Positions 1 to 5,979 of a stretch of 5,979 nt of DNA are shown here, in pieces. This DNA is from an uncultured Bacilli bacterium (lineage in GTDB: Bacteria > Bacillota_I > Bacilli_A > RF39 > UBA660): NCBI GenBank assembly GCA_947625425.1, contig CANQOH010000056.1, positions 1-5,979 on the forward strand. Direction: 5' to 3'. Both the position numbers and the translations under genes were made by a program. Numbering within the stretch: the first letter of the stretch is position 1; each line of letters starts with the position of its first letter. The notes beneath the pieces are model-generated. The model did not search any database, had not been told where the DNA came from, and saw only the letters and a list, made by a program, of their open reading frames with translations.

Positions 1-1331
1 CATTTTTCACAATAAATCATTGGAATTGGTTCACCCCAGAATCTTTGTCTAGAGAAGATCCAATCACGCATCTTGTAGTTATTTACAACACGACCAATAC
101 CTTTTTCTTCTAACATTTTCGTTAAAGCTTCTTTAGCTTCTTTAACTGTTAAACCACTATATTCTTCAGAATTAACTAATCTGGCATTAGGATTATCTAA
201 ATAATCATATTTTTCATAAGCTTTTTCTTCTAAGTTTCCACCGGTAATAACTTCTAAAATCTCTAAGTTATGAACTTTAGCATATTCATAATCTCTTTGA
301 TCATGAGCTGGAACAGCCATAACTGCTCCGGTTCCATAATCTCCTAAGACAAAATCACCTAAGAAAATAGGCACTTCTTTACCAGTAACTGGATTAATTG
401 CTTTAATACCTTTAACTTCAACACCAGTTTTACCTTTATTTAATTCTGTACGATCCATATTAGATTTCTTGCTTGTTTCTTCAATATAAGCTAATACTTC
501 ATCTTTATTTTCTACTCTTGGCATTAATTCTTTAATTAATTTACCATCAGGTGCTATTACAAAGAATGTAATACCATAAATAGTTTCAATACAAGTTGTA
601 AATATTGAGAATTTACCGCCTCCAACAATATCAACATCTACTTCAACACCTGTTGATTTACCTATCCAATTTATTTGCCCTAATTTAACTTTCTCCGCAA
701 AATTAGTATCATCTAAACCTTTTAATAAATCTTCAGCATAATCACTCATTCTTAACATCCATTGGGCTTTTTCTTTTTGAATAACTGGACTACCACAACG
801 TTCACAAACGCCACCAGCTGCATCTTCATTAGATAATACTGATTTACAAGTTGGACACCAGTTTACTGGAATTGTATCTTTATAAGCCATTCCATGTTTA
901 TAGAATTGTAAAAATTGCCATTGTGTCCATTTATAATACTCTGGATCAGTTGTTGAAAACTCTCTACTCCAATCAAATGAGAAACCTAAACTCTTCATTT
1001 GCTTTTTAAAAGTTACAATATTTTCTTTAACTGCTTCTTTAGGATGAATATGATTTTTAATCGCATATTGTTCAGCCGGTGCGCCAAATGCATCCCATCC
1101 CATTGGATATAAAACATTTAGTCCTTGCATTCTTTTCATTCTGGCAATGGCATCTTGAGCTGTATAACTTCTAACATGTCCTACATGTAACCCAGAACCA
1201 CTTGGATAAGGAAACTCTACTAAGATATAGTATGGTTTCTTACTTTTATCTCCTGTTTTAGCTTCAAAAGTATGATGATCATCCCAATACTTTTGCCATT
1301 TCTTTTCTATTTCATTAAAATTATATTCCAT
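1..1331 (-). CDS. leuS: Leucyl-tRNA synthetase (LeuRS), N-terminal 443 codons, cut by window edge
   Basis: Cytoplasmic class I synthetase that charges tRNA-Leu with leucine. Reading from the ATG at 1331, the sequence shows an N-terminal Rossmann half with PYPSGSGLHVGH (HIGH-type signature HVGH, residues about 49-52) and then GWDAFGAPAEQYAIK. A zinc-knuckle-like pair CPTC...CERC follows. The CP1 editing domain includes TTCIETIYG (bases 582-599 encode TTCIET) and VPAHDQRDYEYA. The return to the catalytic core is at RDWIFSRQRFWGEPIP. The KMSKS loop, anticodon-binding domain and C-terminus lie beyond base 1, so this is roughly half of a usual 800-residue LeuRS. The start is supported by an AAAGAGTGA ribosome-binding site at 1337-1345 that abuts the previous gene's TAG stop. 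The gene is third in a leucine T-box operon, 14 bp after the Nudix gene. Oddity: the usually TTRPDT editing motif reads TTCIET. The family call is certain. Confidence 0.97.
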   Translation of the reverse strand, partial: MEYNFNEIEKKWQKYWDDHHTFEAKTGDKSKKPYYILVEFPYPSGSGLHVGHVRSYTAQDAIARMKRMQGLNVLYPMGWDAFGAPAEQYAIKNHIHPKEAVKENIVTFKKQMKSLGFSFDWSREFSTTDPEYYKWTQWQFLQFYKHGMAYKDTIPVNWCPTCKSVLSNEDAAGGVCERCGSPVIQKEKAQWMLRMSDYAEDLLKGLDDTNFAEKVKLGQINWIGKSTGVEVDVDIVGGGKFSIFTTCIETIYGITFFVIAPDGKLIKELMPRVENKDEVLAYIEETSKKSNMDRTELNKGKTGVEVKGIKAINPVTGKEVPIFLGDFVLGDYGTGAVMAVPAHDQRDYEYAKVHNLEILEVITGGNLEEKAYEKYDYLDNPNARLVNSEEYSGLTVKEAKEALTKMLEEKGIGRVVNNYKMRDWIFSRQRFWGEPIPMIYCEK

Positions 1332-1345
1332 TATATTCACTCTTT

Positions 1346-2197
1346 CTAATTATGTTCTTCTAACCATTTTAAAATTACTTTAGTTGCTTCTTTTCTACTT
1401 AATCCATTAACTATCTCTGAATTAACTAAAATACCATCAGTTACAATAACTTGGTCTTGCATCGCATACTCATAAGTTTTATGATGTAAACCATCTTTTA
1501 TTTCTTCTAAAACAGTTTCTTTATCTACCCATTCCACACTAAATACTTCATCTTCATCTAAATTCTGTTTATTCTTCTTCCTATTTTTTAATTTAAATAA
1601 GAAACCAGTACATTCTATATTAAAGTATTTATCTTTATTAAAAGCATAATAATGATGATTTATTTTTGGTAACTCTTTCAGAAGTTCTAACTTATTATAA
1701 CCAGTTTCTTCTTCGACTTCTCTTAAAGCACAATCTAATGGCTTTTCGCCTTCTTTAATTGTTCCACCAATAAATAAACGCCCACCTTTTTCATGCCAAT
1801 TAATTGTGAGGTATTTATCATTATCTTCATCATAGACAATTGCAACAATTGAATTTTTCTTAAATTCATTATCGTGAGGTTCACCAGTAACTTCTTCAAT
1901 TACTTGTTTAATTTCAATATTATGTTTAATTGCATATTCATAATCTTCTTTATTATGAGCTGGAACTCCAACTCGATCTTCTTTAATCTTACTATCAATA
2001 TAAATAGGTAATTTTAAATTATTTATTGGATTAATCGCATACAGCTTAGTAAATCCATCTTTAATATCCATACCTAATTCTTTACTAGATTTTAATAATA
2101 AATAAGTAATACCATATAAAGTATCTACTTCTTTAACTGGTATTTCTAATACTTTATCTTTTTTATCTAATTTAAGTTTAACTATTTTACTTTTCAT
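1346..2197 (-). CDS. Nudix hydrolase domain embedded in a LeuRS CP1 editing-like domain
   Basis: A 283-residue protein with a complete Nudix box (G-x5-E-x7-REVEEETGY, residues 145-167), so it should hydrolyse a nucleoside-diphosphate-linked substrate with divalent metal. The Nudix fold spans about residues 114-235. The flanks resemble the LeuRS editing domain. Residues 24-34 (VDTLYGITYLL) match the region after the LeuRS TTRPDT motif. Residues 53-100 contain YAINP, VPAHNKEDYEYA and IKQVI, as in LeuRS VPAHDQRDYEYA. Residues 253-281 (TDGILVNS...GLSRKEA...WLEE) match the segment where CP1 returns to the core. Positions corresponding to E. coli LeuRS T252 (T26) and D345 (D85) appear retained, but about 40 residues of CP1 and the HIGH/KMSKS core are absent. 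The ATG at 2197 has GGGG at 2206-2209 eight bases upstream and overlaps the preceding gene by 11 bp, implying translational coupling. The gene lies just upstream of leuS. The Nudix call is certain; CP1 ancestry is strongly supported by motifs; the substrate is unknown. Confidence 0.9.
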   Translation of the reverse strand: MKSKIVKLKLDKKDKVLEIPVKEVDTLYGITYLLLKSSKELGMDIKDGFTKLYAINPINNLKLPIYIDSKIKEDRVGVPAHNKEDYEYAIKHNIEIKQVIEEVTGEPHDNEFKKNSIVAIVYDEDNDKYLTINWHEKGGRLFIGGTIKEGEKPLDCALREVEEETGYNKLELLKELPKINHHYYAFNKDKYFNIECTGFLFKLKNRKKNKQNLDEDEVFSVEWVDKETVLEEIKDGLHHKTYEYAMQDQVIVTDGILVNSEIVNGLSRKEATKVILKWLEEHN

Positions 2198-2549
2198 CTT
2201 TCTTACCCCATTTTTTATTTAGATAATGACCATATCCAAAATATAAACTAAATATTAAAATTAAAATAACTACAAAAGCAATTAATAACTTAATCCCAAT
2301 AAACCATCCATCAGGTAATATATCTACTAAAGTTATCGCAAAAGCTATAATAAAAGCATTAATAATTGAAATCATATTTAGTAACTTACGATAATTCATT
2401 TTCTTTTTATCTAAATTAAATTTCTTTGTCAGGATAACTAATTCAGATATTTTCGTATATTTTTCTTTTTTGAGTAAATCATCAAAGATGAAATAATATA
2501 CAAAATAAACTATTATAAAAACAATTCCAAAGAATACTAAATCAAACAT
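2187..2549 (-). CDS. Small three-helix membrane protein of unknown function
   Basis: A 120-residue integral membrane protein that I cannot assign to a named family. Three hydrophobic helices are visible: residues about 3-22 (very rich in Phe, Val, Ile and Tyr), 56-76 and 83-105. A basic cytoplasmic-type loop (about 25-55, with KKEKYTK and KKFNLDKKKMNYRK) separates helices 1 and 2, and the C-terminus is lysine-rich (NKKWGKKDEK). Helices 2 and 3 are joined by a short acidic turn (DILPDGW). By the positive-inside rule the large loop is probably cytoplasmic, which conflicts mildly with the basic C-terminus for an odd number of helices. There is no cleavable signal peptide. It is the first gene behind the leucine T-box leader, with GAGG at 2557-2560 seven bases before the ATG. 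Its stop overlaps the Nudix start by 11 bp, so the two are co-translated. Expression should follow leucyl-tRNA charging; its role is unknown. Confidence 0.85.
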   Translation of the reverse strand: MFDLVFFGIVFIIVYFVYYFIFDDLLKKEKYTKISELVILTKKFNLDKKKMNYRKLLNMISIINAFIIAFAITLVDILPDGWFIGIKLLIAFVVILILIFSLYFGYGHYLNKKWGKKDEK

Positions 2550-2556
2550 TATAAAA

Positions 2557-2567
2557 CCTCACTTTCC
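2557..2567 (-). promoter_or_regulatory. Ribosome-binding site of the first T-box operon gene
   Basis: The minus strand reads GGAAAGTGAGG just past the leader terminator, with GAGG seven bases before the ATG at 2549. It supports that start and shows that translation begins about 10 bases after the terminator U-run. Confidence 0.7.
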
Positions 2568-2572
2568 AAAAT

Positions 2573-2604
2573 AAAAGACATTTTCGTATAAGGACGAAAA
2601 TGTC
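2573..2604 (-). terminator. Conditional intrinsic terminator of the T-box leader
   Basis: A perfect 11-bp stem pairs GACATTTTCGT (2594-2604) with ACGAAAATGTC (2577-2587) around the six-base loop CCTTAT, followed by TTTTATTTT. It overlaps the 3' side of the antiterminator. The stem is AT-rich but long. It should stop transcription when tRNA-Leu is fully charged. Confidence 0.92.
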
Positions 2605-2772
2605 GTGGTACCACCTTAATTTCTGATAAATATATCAGCTTTAAATTGATAAAGGAATTACCCTAATAGCTCCAAAAGCAAGTTCAAATATCTATCATCC
2701 TAATTTTCACCACCCATTAGGTCTCTTTAATGAATTAATATTTTACTACTCTTTCTTCATCACTTAAATATT
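2577..2772 (-). promoter_or_regulatory. T-box riboswitch leader, leucine-specific
   Basis: Leader RNA that binds tRNA-Leu and lets transcription continue only when the tRNA is uncharged. Visible parts, 5' to 3', follow. Basal stem I pairs AAAG (2751-2754) with CTTT (2675-2678). The specifier loop has AGTAGTA (2744-2750) opposite GAACTTG (2679-2685). The stem above pairs 2738-2743 with 2686-2691. A distal hairpin pairs CCTAAT with ATTAGG (2716-2721 with 2699-2704) around the conserved GGGTGGTGAAA loop. A stem III-like hairpin CTGATA-TATT-TATCAG lies at 2623-2638. The hallmark AAGGTGGTACCACG is at 2604-2617, followed by a competing terminator. The codon at the specifier position, after GAA and before one purine and the stem, is CTT (2680-2682), a leucine codon; the overlapping TTG would also be leucine. 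The 5' end near 2772 is inferred from the promoter. This agrees with leuS being in the operon. Confidence 0.95.
2589..2618 (-). promoter_or_regulatory. T-box antiterminator element
   Basis: TAAGG (2614-2618) pairs with CCTTA (2589-2593), and ACG (2604-2606) with CGT (2594-2596). This leaves the canonical seven-base bulge TGGTACC (2607-2613). The UGGU of the bulge can pair with the tRNA end ACCA, which predicts an A discriminator base, as expected for tRNA-Leu. The 3' side is shared with the terminator stem, so the two structures are mutually exclusive. Confidence 0.9.
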
Positions 2773-2778
2773 AAATGT

Positions 2779-2807
2779 ATTATAAAATATCTTTATTTTT
2801 AAATCAA
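2779..2807 (-). promoter_or_regulatory. Sigma-A-type promoter of the T-box/leuS operon
   Basis: The -35 TTGATT (2802-2807) and the consensus -10 TATAAT (2779-2784) are separated by exactly 17 bp. The expected transcription start is around 2770-2773, just ahead of stem I of the T-box. The -35 lies only seven bases past the stop codon of the upstream 169-residue gene. Confidence 0.85.
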
Positions 2808-2813
2808 GAATAA

Positions 2814-3323
2814 TTAACGACTTCTACCATGTGATACAGTATCATCTTCATATTCTACCCCAATACTTTGAGCGAACATATACATTTGTAATGAAACATC
2901 TGCATCATTATAATAGCCAATCTTTTTCAAATGATCAAAATACTCAGCAGCTGCACGCATTTTTCTTAAATTACATTGCTCTTGGGAAATCTGTTCTGCT
3001 TTTAATGCTTTTTCTGCTAATTGTATTTTTCTATTAAACACACAAGTATGTAAGCCATTTGTTAAAATATGACGAATACCTACTAATGAACCTACTAATG
3101 CCCCTTTTCTTTGGATTGCATGTGACATTTTATGTCTTACGTTTTCTGAATAAGTAACATAAGAATCAATTGGTCCATTTACTGGAGTATGAACATTACC
3201 TCCAGCTGGTGCGGCAAATGGATTAACAACACGTCCATTAACCATTGCACGACCAGATCTACTAGTTGGTATTCCTCCTGCTGCTACACCTCTTCTAGGT
3301 CCTCTAGGCCCTCTTGGTGGCAT
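2814..3323 (-). CDS. Hypothetical protein with Gly/Pro/Arg-rich N-terminus
   Basis: A 169-residue protein that I do not recognise. Residues 1-55 look disordered and are rich in Gly, Pro, Ala and Arg (MPPRGPRGPRRG, then GRAMVNGRVVNPFAAPAGG). Residues about 60-155 look helical. They include a short apolar stretch (GALVGSLVGIRHIL, 74-87) too weak to be a convincing membrane helix, two cysteines (94 and 117), and a charged helix around 97-135 (QLAEKALKAEQISQEQ). The tail is acidic then basic (EYEDDTVSHGRSR). There is no signal peptide. The start at 3323 has a strong AAGGGGA site at 3331-3337. It follows the GH31 gene by 38 bp on the same strand, so it may be co-transcribed, but a candidate promoter also lies in the gap. 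The 5' third is visibly more GC-rich than its neighbours because of Gly/Pro/Arg codons. It is clearly coding by RBS and composition; function is unknown. Confidence 0.8.
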   Translation of the reverse strand: MPPRGPRGPRRGVAAGGIPTSRSGRAMVNGRVVNPFAAPAGGNVHTPVNGPIDSYVTYSENVRHKMSHAIQRKGALVGSLVGIRHILTNGLHTCVFNRKIQLAEKALKAEQISQEQCNLRKMRAAAEYFDHLKKIGYYNDADVSLQMYMFAQSIGVEYEDDTVSHGRSR

Positions 3324-3346
3324 AAAATCATCCCCTTACTACCGCT

Positions 3347-3375
3347 ATTATAAACACAAAATTAAATTTGTGCAA
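3347..3375 (-). promoter_or_regulatory. Possible internal promoter for the 169-residue gene
   Basis: A consensus -10 TATAAT (3347-3352) lies 24 bases before the ATG. A weak -35, TTGCAC (3370-3375), sits 17 bp further upstream and overlaps the end of the GH31 coding region. The -35 matches only about half the consensus and AT-rich DNA produces such boxes by chance, so this is tentative. Confidence 0.4.
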
Positions 3376-5842
3376 CATACTCTAGCAATTTCATAAACAT
3401 ATTGACAAACGTCTTATCTAAGCCAACTTTTTGTAAATTTCTAATTTCGGCACGTTTTTTATCAATACTCATATTAGAGAAGACAATTCTACCAATTTGT
3501 TCTTTTAATACTGTTTTAATCTGTAAATCAGAAATAATTGAATCAATATCTTCATTAATTAATCTTACAGCATCTATTTCAATATCTTTACCTTTACAAT
3601 TTATTGTTAATTGTTTAGTTGTTGGAACATCATTAACTTCTACAATAAAATCAGTATCTTCAATATAACAATTACGTTCTACTTTATCATTATTTATATA
3701 AACAATAACATCATTAGCTTCTCTTGTATTTCTAAATCTAATACGATAATTTCTCTTCGCTGGAACAATACCCGTCTTACCTTCTACTGGTCTAATAATT
3801 AAAGTATAGTTATTAGCCATATAGTTATAATCTACTCTAGTAAGTAAGTAATAACCTTCTTTATAAAGATTACTAAATCCATCATCTTCATATAAATTAT
3901 ATTGATTACTCTTACCAGGAAAAACATGTATTTCCATTGTCTTCGGTGAATTAGTTACATTCATATTATTCTCTAAATCAGCCATACATACAATAGATCC
4001 ATCTCTTGCAAATACTGGATAATCTTCATCTTTATAGAATAAAATATATCTCTTATTACCTAAATATTTTTTACCTGTCTTAAAATCATACCAAGTACCT
4101 TTAGGTAAGAATATCTTTTCGACAGATCTATTCATGACTGCATCTTTAGGTTTAGTAATTGGTGCCACAAATAACTCAGAACCATAATAATATTCATTAC
4201 GATAATCTAATTCATCATATATTTCTGGATATTGATAATATACTGGTTGTACTAAAGGTAAACCAACTTTATGATACTTATAAGCTTCTGAATATAAATA
4301 AGGTATTAATTTATGTCTCATTTGACAATATAATCTAACGATATTTAAAGTCTTAACATCCCATTTCCAAGGTTCTCTTTTATAATATCTTCCATACTTC
4401 GCACTAAATCTAAATATTGGACTAAAAGTTCCATATTGTACATATCTTATATATAATTCTGAATCTTCAATCCCATCTTTATATCCTCCAACATCATGAC
4501 TCCACCAAGATAAACCTAGATTAGAAGATGTACTATTATAGTAAGGTAATATCTTTAATGTATTCCAACTAACTAAAGTTTCACCACTATAATGAACAGG
4601 GAATAAATGCGGAGCATAAGTATTAGCTCTACTTAGTATTAAAGGTCTAACTCCTTCCATCTTATTAAAATCTGTAAAATGATAATAATTTAAGGCATCA
4701 TTACCTGCTTTATCTTTCAAGTTACGATAATTAATCCAGAAGAAATCTACTCCTACTTTATATAATGGATCAATTAAATCATTTAAATAAGAACTCATTA
4801 ATTCTTTATCAAAAGCATTAAAAGGTATTGTTTGTTTATCTCCTACACCAACTTTTTTTGCTACTTCATCAAACTTTGGTTCATGAGGATGAATACCTTC
4901 ACTAGGATCAATACTAAGTCCTACTCTTACGCCACGATCATGCATATATTTAACAAATTCCGTTGGTTTATAAAATAATTCACGATTAAAAGTAAAACCA
5001 GAATTAAATCTTGATAAATTATTTTTATCTTTTAAGTGCCAGTTATCTCCTAAAAGTAAAACACTCATTGGTATTTTATTTCGATTAAATTCCATAAGTA
5101 ACTTTTGAATATTATCAAAGTTATAAACATCATTTTTATTCCACCAAATACCTAAAGCATAACGAGGTATTAAAGGAGGCATACCTGTTAAAGTGAAATA
5201 ACTATGTAAGCAATTACCAAAATCTTTATTATACATAAAAACATATATATCAATACGTTTCTTATCATTATATATTAAAGCTCCATCTTCACCTATAAAA
5301 TTAGAACTTGAATCATCTATTGAAACAAAGCCATCAGCAGAATATAAACCTTTAGCTTTCGCTACTAACATATCTTCAATTTTTCTTTTAACATGTTTAA
5401 AGTCTTTAACTTCACTTTCCCCCAAAAATGGATCAACAGTTCTATCAATATTAGCCACAATACCACTATAATTTCTGGCTTCTGGATGACCATAATACCA
5501 TTCTTTACCATTAGCATCTAATAATCTAATTTTTAAAATACTATCTGGTGCATACTTATTGCTGGCAAAAGATTTTTCTTTTTCATAACGTAAATTAAAA
5601 TATTTAGTCGTTATATCTAAGACTCTTTCATTTTGATCTACTTTCATCTGCGGAATAGAAAAATTTCTAAACTTAGCAAACTCTGTAGGTCGATCTTCAA
5701 AATAACCTTCTTCACTAAACTCTAATCTAACTAATAAATCACTTAAAACTGTAATACGATAAAATTGTCCTTTAAATACTGATTGTGGTTTACTTATTGC
5801 ATCTTTATAATTAGGTTTAAAATGTTCACCAAAATTAGCCAT
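3362..5842 (-). CDS. GH31-family glycosidase-like protein, catalytic aspartates replaced
   Basis: An 826-residue cytoplasmic protein (no signal peptide) with glycoside hydrolase family 31 architecture. It has an N-terminal beta-sandwich (about 1-215), a TIM barrel (about 216-545, opening PRYALGIWWNKN), and C-terminal beta domains (about 546-765). A helical tail (about 770-826) appears to be an addition. Family landmarks present include FNREL, SWWSHDVGG (445-453), VQYGTFSPIFR, KREPW and PLVQPVYY. Active members are retaining alpha-glucosidases or xylosidases with an Asp nucleophile and an Asp acid/base. Here the nucleophile position in WID(W/Y) is Asn371 (WINYRN) and the acid/base in SGDT is Glu421 (HYSGETL). 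The -1 site DMDWH reads GDNWH (265-269), and the His of the RLHS-like motif reads Ser480. Arg405 (LSRAN) and Asp450 are kept. The frame is intact, so it is under selection. GGAGG at 5849-5853, six bases before the ATG, fixes the start. Fold assignment is certain; ordinary hydrolase activity is doubtful. Confidence 0.95.
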   Translation of the reverse strand: MANFGEHFKPNYKDAISKPQSVFKGQFYRITVLSDLLVRLEFSEEGYFEDRPTEFAKFRNFSIPQMKVDQNERVLDITTKYFNLRYEKEKSFASNKYAPDSILKIRLLDANGKEWYYGHPEARNYSGIVANIDRTVDPFLGESEVKDFKHVKRKIEDMLVAKAKGLYSADGFVSIDDSSSNFIGEDGALIYNDKKRIDIYVFMYNKDFGNCLHSYFTLTGMPPLIPRYALGIWWNKNDVYNFDNIQKLLMEFNRNKIPMSVLLLGDNWHLKDKNNLSRFNSGFTFNRELFYKPTEFVKYMHDRGVRVGLSIDPSEGIHPHEPKFDEVAKKVGVGDKQTIPFNAFDKELMSSYLNDLIDPLYKVGVDFFWINYRNLKDKAGNDALNYYHFTDFNKMEGVRPLILSRANTYAPHLFPVHYSGETLVSWNTLKILPYYNSTSSNLGLSWWSHDVGGYKDGIEDSELYIRYVQYGTFSPIFRFSAKYGRYYKREPWKWDVKTLNIVRLYCQMRHKLIPYLYSEAYKYHKVGLPLVQPVYYQYPEIYDELDYRNEYYYGSELFVAPITKPKDAVMNRSVEKIFLPKGTWYDFKTGKKYLGNKRYILFYKDEDYPVFARDGSIVCMADLENNMNVTNSPKTMEIHVFPGKSNQYNLYEDDGFSNLYKEGYYLLTRVDYNYMANNYTLIIRPVEGKTGIVPAKRNYRIRFRNTREANDVIVYINNDKVERNCYIEDTDFIVEVNDVPTTKQLTINCKGKDIEIDAVRLINEDIDSIISDLQIKTVLKEQIGRIVFSNMSIDKKRAEIRNLQKVGLDKTFVNMFMKLLEYVAQI

Positions 5843-5895
5843 AAAACGCCTCCATTTTATTCTTTAAGCTTTATCCTTATTATCTTTCATTATCT

Positions 5896-5924
5896 ATTAT
5901 ATCACGTATAATACTGATTAGTAA
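5896..5924 (-). promoter_or_regulatory. Extended -10 promoter of the GH31 gene
   Basis: The minus strand reads TGATATAAT (5896-5904), a perfect extended -10 (TGn plus TATAAT). A poor -35-like TTACTA (5919-5924) lies at 17 bp spacing; an extended -10 can work without a good -35. It lies about 54 bases before the ATG, leaving a short leader with a GGAGG site. Nothing further is recognisable in the AT-rich 5925-5979; the upstream gene is outside the window. Confidence 0.65.
5901..5918. repeat. Imperfect inverted repeat in the GH31 promoter spacer
   Basis: On the minus strand ATCAGTAT-T-ATACGTGAT forms two 8-base arms, with one extra G in the right arm. It fills the region between -35 and -10, where a repressor could block polymerase. 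It may be an operator for sugar-responsive control, but a short palindrome in AT-rich DNA can arise by chance. Confidence 0.3.
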
Positions 5925-5979
5925 ATTGATGAAATTGCAAATCATTAATTTATTAGTATAATAATTTTACTTATTTTTA

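Follow-up and report, generated by a model that had tools for sequence, protein, structure and literature searches.

AlaX and ThrRS-ed are free-standing trans-editing enzymes, and to our knowledge all enzymes of this kind known so far keep a deacylase pocket and proofreading activity. ProXp is likewise described as a free-standing trans-editing enzyme (PMC11295145), and the LeuRS-I of Sulfolobaceae is described as a leucyl-tRNA synthetase (LeuRS) in which the CP1 editing domain is disrupted (PMC9437257). Here we describe a LeuRS CP1 domain that is encoded as a protein of its own and is interrupted by a Nudix hydrolase domain. Its gene lies immediately upstream of leuS in a stretch of 5,979 nucleotides (the whole of which we call the window) from an uncultured Bacilli bacterium of the GTDB lineage Bacillota_I; Bacilli_A; RF39; UBA660 (assembly GCA_947625425.1, contig CANQOH010000056.1, positions 1 to 5,979). 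We think it probable, from sequence comparisons, that this detached CP1 was retained beside leuS as a Nudix pyrophosphohydrolase on a CP1 scaffold, made in step with LeuRS.

No description of a Nudix domain within LeuRS was found among the open-access papers listed, judged by titles, the beginnings of abstracts, and some passages; in PMC12077802, "nudix" occurs in a reference only. The in-line architecture, with the Nudix domain inside the CP1 of a full-length LeuRS, is already visible in database domain annotations; what this work adds is a form that is free-standing and editing-dead, the likelihood that it arose repeatedly, and the exchange of CP1. Some LeuRSs of the Candidate Phyla Radiation may also bear a Nudix domain.

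Architecture of the detached protein and state of its editing pocket

The first-pass annotation of this DNA, made from the letters alone, had the position, strand, and length of the open reading frame (ORF) right, and its description of a Nudix box bracketed by CP1 segments, next to a leuS whose own CP1 is free of Nudix, agrees with the profile searches. PF13603, the LeuRS editing-domain profile, matches the 283-amino-acid protein in three stretches with 71 bits (cut-off, 25; E 1.1e-19) and the neighboring leuS in a single stretch (E 6.4e-55); PF00293 (NUDIX) matches residues 116-232 of the former (58.5 bits; cut-off, 21.1; E 9.1e-16). In a structure model of the protein (pLDDT 93.6, pTM 0.87), whose input alignment did contain LeuRS CP1 domains, the flanks adopt the CP1 fold and the Nudix fold is also present. 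The outcome that the first-pass annotation had named as refuting its proposal, flanks unlike CP1, thus did not occur. Residues 1-283 correspond to E. coli LeuRS 227-407 (VIA alignment); the ORF is confined to the limits of CP1, its second CP1 part stopping near the domain limit, ahead of the LeuRS NYKMRDW block, and the chain contains no synthetase body.

The Nudix centre is complete, and the editing pocket is not. Residues T247, T248, R249, T252, Y330, D342, and D345 of E. coli LeuRS are those that we take to have roles in the pocket. Aligned to the E. coli enzyme, the window protein has V, K, and E at T247, T248, and R249, a deletion covering E292-M298, R in place of Y330, a gap at G331-T332, and N in place of D342. 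It retains D251, T252, V338, H341, and D345, and thus only T252 and D345 of the pocket set. The equivalence of these two with T26 and D85 of the window protein had been proposed at first pass and agrees with our alignment; the further suggestion that the pocket still binds an aminoacyl-adenosine end is poorly supported, given the losses around them. The same comparison across 11 free-standing proteins gave a similar picture: 10 lack the T247-T248-R249 motif (the exception, P0013, has TTRPD) and 8 lack T252, and in all 11 residues 292-298 are gapped, residue 330 is not Y, and D342 is replaced by N or I. H341 and D345 are retained throughout, D345 being the only member of the pocket set of which this is true. 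In contrast, TTRxDT and HDxRD are retained in every one of the 58 in-line LeuRSs in the 106-sequence set introduced below. Judged by these alignments, the editing pocket of the free-standing protein is decayed, and an intact deacylase pocket is absent.

The Nudix box is intact in 12 of 12 free-standing sequences and in 68 of 71 in-line sequences. Pairwise dN/dS among the window, L001, and L002 was 0.09 to 0.11 for the Nudix domain and 0.22 to 0.24 for the CP1 part. When each was paired with L149, which is more distant, the values rose to 0.21 to 0.25 and 0.62 to 0.72 (no formal test against 1 in either set). Judged by these observations, the gene is probably under selection, the Nudix domain more strongly than the CP1 part.

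Distribution, lineages, and exchange of CP1

Among 23 related loci in named genome records, 21 carry CP1-Nudix inside a LeuRS frame of 778 to 959 codons; in the other two, L001 and L002, the free form adjoins an 812-codon leuS frame. In the wider surveys of the family and order, in-line and free forms were for most genomes told apart by frame length only. The family (193 genomes) gave 46 matches, 41 in frames of 492 to 962 codons (LeuRS, some truncated where a contig ends); the other 5 lie in frames of 281 to 301 codons. A type II query (see below) matched 105 of 375 genomes of the order, 100 with frames of 492 to 975 codons and 6 with the free-standing form, G888 having both; another two rows, 166 and 169 codons long, were ordinary Nudix frames. 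Samples at class level (16 of 395; 15 in-line, 1 free) and phylum level (5 of 392; 3 in-line, 1 free, and one ordinary Nudix frame of 142 codons) showed the Nudix insert less often. Proteins of free-standing size with both PF13603 and PF00293 make up 13 metagenome clusters (276 to 296 amino acids, the window counted), assigned by length, domains, and coverage, with the sequences of three clusters read. In the database annotations, a list of 120 rows, drawn from at least 7985 candidates whose matched region also took in CP1, gave source names for in-line forms in two rows: leucine--tRNA ligase [Bacilli bacterium] and class I tRNA ligase family protein [Candidatus Onthocola stercoravium].

The free-standing proteins fall into three groups: type I (the window, L001, L002, L149 of genome G552, and metagenome clusters), type II (G401, G398, G417, G507, and G910), and a third form of 306 amino acids in G888. 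On a tree of 83 Nudix sequences (FastTree, midpoint root), the type I free clade (0.989) is nested among in-line type I sequences, the type II free clade (0.996) is sister to the in-line type II clade (0.977), and the G888 protein branches outside both types. Since the three groups are placed apart, two or three origins of the free form are likely. The direction from in-line to free is clear for type I on this tree, and we infer it for type II and the third form. While the combination of Nudix and CP1 recognized in the first-pass annotation stands, the history that it implied, a Nudix domain inserted into an already free-standing CP1, was most likely the reverse, because 21 of the 23 loci are in-line and the type I free proteins are nested.

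How a CP1 might come to be replaced within a synthetase is suggested by the LeuRSs themselves. We compared 106 of them (a LeuRS frame was present at 113 loci, from which 1 short frame and 7 duplicates were dropped and to which the window was added; some near-identical pairs remain), of which 58 have an in-line Nudix (I), 29, including the window, have a Nudix-free CP1 with the motif TTCIET (C), and 19 are regular and Nudix-free (R). In the C type, TTCIET replaces the TTRxDT editing strand (R249C, P250I, D251E) and HDxRD is kept; such LeuRSs, found in the window, L001, L002, part of L109-L133, and L149-L153, may differ in editing specificity. The C-type CP1 forms one clade on the CP1 tree, requiring 1 change, and the body tree, some of whose nodes are weakly supported, requires 12. 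In topology tests on a hand-picked subset of 52 of these sequences, run with a fast tree search, monophyly of C was rejected by the body alignment (delta lnL 1309.8, AU p 6e-7) and the body tree by the CP1 alignment (delta lnL 1907, AU p 3e-7). Comparison of L153 with L079 in 30-residue windows gave 57 to 97% identity (median, 87) in the body and 33 to 63% in CP1, and identical stretches run up to WIGKS and resume at NYKFREW, marking sharp switches at both hinges. These trees and alignments support the swapping of CP1 as a cassette between LeuRS bodies.

The leuS locus and the possible role of the detached protein

We imagine the following history for the window. The starting state would be the one seen in related gut Bacilli, many of whose full-length LeuRSs have the Nudix domain inside their own CP1. 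Since CP1 appears to be exchanged as a cassette, a Nudix-free C-type CP1 may have replaced the resident Nudix-CP1 in the leuS of this lineage, the old CP1-Nudix piece staying next door as a separate gene behind a T-box. Its editing pocket would then have decayed, its Nudix centre being retained by selection, and the CP1 part probably survives as a scaffold gripping both ends of the Nudix domain. A Nudix pyrophosphohydrolase is predicted because the catalytic box is intact and constrained, and it would be produced in step with LeuRS.

The arrangement of the locus is consistent with this (Table 1). The 120-amino-acid ORF, the CP1-Nudix gene, and leuS look like one leucine-controlled operon, because the first overlaps the start of the second and leuS starts, at a conserved ATG (MEYNF) at 1331, 14 bases past the CP1-Nudix stop; we infer co-transcription from this spacing. 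The T-box specifier, read by eye, is CUU (Leu) at 2680-2682, after GAA. T-boxes were found in 5 of 10 loci searched (L001, L002, L109, L111, and L123).

Table 1. Features of the window
Feature	Position	Strand	Basis or remark
leuS, truncated by window end	3-1340	-	TIGR00396, 568 bits
Free-standing CP1-Nudix protein, 283 aa	1346-2197	-	ORF; PF13603 + PF00293; structure model
CP1 part 2, residues 247-283 + stop	1346-1459	-	Alignments
Nudix hydrolase domain, residues about 112-246	1460-1864	-	
Nudix box, residues 145-167, complete	1697-1765	-	Pattern GX5EX7REUXEEXGU
CP1 part 1, residues 1-111	1865-2197	-	Alignment to E. coli LeuRS; pocket segments degraded
Small ORF, 120 aa, hydrophobic/membrane-bound look by eye	2187-2549	-	Overlaps CP1-Nudix gene start
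T-box leader	2587-2769	-	RF00230, 102.7 bits (gathering score, 93)
Pro/Gly-rich ORF, 169 aa	2814-3323	-	Between GH31 and T-box
GH31 enzyme	3362-5842	-	

The 120-amino-acid ORF reached the cut-off of no Pfam or NCBIfam family. It was considered as a partner gene of CP1-Nudix and rejected: by eye, 16 of the 19 loci viewed have such an ORF ahead of leuS, whether or not a CP1-Nudix gene is present (none was seen in L154 and L155, and L153 starts too near the contig end). The Pro/Gly-rich ORF has no match in Pfam (E 1) or NCBIfam (E 0.001); it has counterparts in relatives, judged by eye.

As to what the enzyme might hydrolyze, synthetases are reported to be a main source of Ap4A and Nudix enzymes to degrade it (PMC10148737), and for that reason Ap4A-type dinucleotides, or another adenylate product arising at synthetases, are our tentative first guess. 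An Ap4A hydrolase in the PDB gave a weak match to the Nudix domain (E 0.0019). YqeK was considered as a possible counterpart in an Ap4A role, and its distribution was not complementary: it exceeded the cut-off in 5 of the 18 genomes with an in-line Nudix, in 1 of the 18 Nudix-free genomes, and in 0 of 1 with the free-standing form. The single Nudix-free copy holds 4 stops, and 12 further of the 37 genomes had weak matches only. In genome G541 (C8:26145-26621), a YqeK-like match has 4 internal TAA codons and is perhaps a decayed gene.

That pattern does not help the Ap4A guess, and other observations also weigh against a Nudix enzyme tied to LeuRS. The free form is not always linked to leuS: among genomes with type II or the third form, 5 had leuS on a different contig, and in G910 it was not seen by eye over the 11 kb read. 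No T-box was found in the other five loci searched (L004 and L066-L069), and those of L109, L111, and L123 precede a Nudix-free leuS, so a T-box does not single out the free form. Three in-line LeuRSs (L063, L073, and L074) have a broken Nudix box, and over longer times constraint on the scaffold, judged by the CP1 values against L149, is weak. The free type II clade stands beside its in-line counterpart on the Nudix tree, not nested within it (joining node, 0.627). In NCBIfam, no Nudix family cut-off was reached, the best match being the RppH model (32.1 bits; cut-off, 118).

One can therefore ask whether the enzyme serves general nucleotide house-cleaning or acts as a MutT/RppH-like pyrophosphohydrolase on RNA 5' ends, with CP1 a permissive landing site and folding scaffold that has no tie to LeuRS. 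We regard this as possible, though doubtful. The Nudix domain has weak matches to the RppH, NudB, and YtkD models of NCBIfam and to Dcp2 chains, and type II free genes lie away from leuS. In L068 (355-4642), the type II gene comes after four genes, assigned by profile (CMP kinase-like, variant radical SAM, unknown, and CYTH); by eye, L067 (1886-6117) has the same set, as does L069 (1413-5652), where the radical SAM frame is not intact. Such nucleotide-flavored neighbors are suggestive only, and those in G401 and G910 differ. However, 100 of the 375 genomes from the order, judged by frame length, keep the Nudix domain at a single site of a single enzyme, and in the window, L001, L002, and L149 leuS is directly preceded by the free type I gene. 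Beside the third free-standing gene, in G888 (L182, 6469-7218), is a 249-amino-acid ORF with FHYTNLNNLPSIDKNG near its start and no Pfam match; we guess that it may have an ADP-ribosyltransferase-like fold.

Leucyl-adenylate mimics like agrocin 84 target LeuRS, and the Nudix domain might protect the cell by destroying adenylate-type antibiotics of this sort, the swaps of CP1 reflecting an arms race. We consider this unlikely. The state of CP1 varies inside one genus (15 genomes: free-standing in 3, in-line in 3, and neither form in 9), CP1 is exchanged among bodies, and the editing strand has become TTCIET in the C-type LeuRSs; but neutral exchange also fits such patchiness, and no toxin or producer gene was noticed in the loci viewed, in which no search was aimed at them.

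Less probable by far is a trans-editing factor, a free CP1 still deacylating mischarged tRNA-Leu, which the first-pass annotation had listed among its hypotheses. Retention of D251, T252, V338, H341, D345, and the CP1 fold in the window protein would fit; yet the T-rich strand, 292-298, Y330, and D342 are lost there, and trans-editing is therefore unlikely. The loss of D342 in all free-standing proteins and of T252 in most of them argues the same way, and the partner LeuRS carries its own HDxRD editing motif. We rejected trans-editing as the principal explanation on this pocket loss. A decaying relic of a leuS duplication, consistent with the faster evolution of the CP1 part and its lost segments, is very improbable and was rejected on the low dN/dS of both parts among close relatives, the open two-domain frames in the 13 clusters, and the intact Nudix boxes of a form that probably arose more than once. 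It is hardly to be expected that a free-standing CP1-Nudix came first and entered LeuRS later: the sister position of the type II free clade would allow it, but CP1 is an integral part of LeuRS, free forms have lost editing residues, P0013 keeps TTRPD, and the type I free proteins are nested among in-line ones.

A Nudix enzyme acting on a nucleotide, as proposed at first pass, thus remains the reading that we prefer, shorn of the aminoacyl-adenosine binding once attached to it. The data presented here support the architecture and the order of the genes, the kinship, the loss of the pocket, a constraint that is stronger on the Nudix domain, and CP1 cassette exchange; catalytic activity and substrate are predicted from these. 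More speculatively, CP1 may be a horizontally exchanged cassette whose Nudix version is a selectable payload, removing a nucleotide that arises at LeuRS or is directed against it (perhaps an Ap4A-type alarmone or a leucyl-adenylate-like antibiotic). Such a payload would repay retention even where the CP1 that hosts it is displaced, and would have been saved repeatedly, through what was likely repeated detachment, as a free-standing, editing-dead protein. If true, a proofreading domain would have become the basis of a new class of nucleotide hydrolases associated with synthetases.

Relation to known systems

Our findings raise the question of which nucleotide reaction suits the proofreading arm of a synthetase. 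CP1 swaps with switches at both hinges suggest that the quality-control domain of an essential enzyme is replaceable as a unit, which bears on the evolution of synthetase modularity and on drugs against the LeuRS editing site.

The closest kin of the window protein are the in-line Nudix-LeuRSs of uncultured Bacilli, which share its Nudix domain and CP1 insertion site but are full synthetases with intact editing motifs. LeuRS CP1 itself (PF13603) has been solved alone (E. coli, 2ajg; S. pneumoniae, 4k47); the window protein differs in being naturally free-standing, interrupted by Nudix, and mostly without its pocket. With the Nudix superfamily (PF00293) it shares the fold and a complete Nudix box, and it differs in that its Nudix domain sits inside CP1 and belongs to no NCBIfam family at cut-off. 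Sulfolobaceae LeuRS-I is also a LeuRS derivative with a degraded CP1, but it keeps the synthetase body, and Nudix has 0 occurrences in the main text of PMC9437257. Like the free-standing trans-editing enzymes, the window protein is a synthetase editing domain with a gene of its own; unlike them, it has a degraded pocket and has retained another enzyme domain. It appears to have dropped proofreading and kept the passenger enzyme, a course probably taken more than once.
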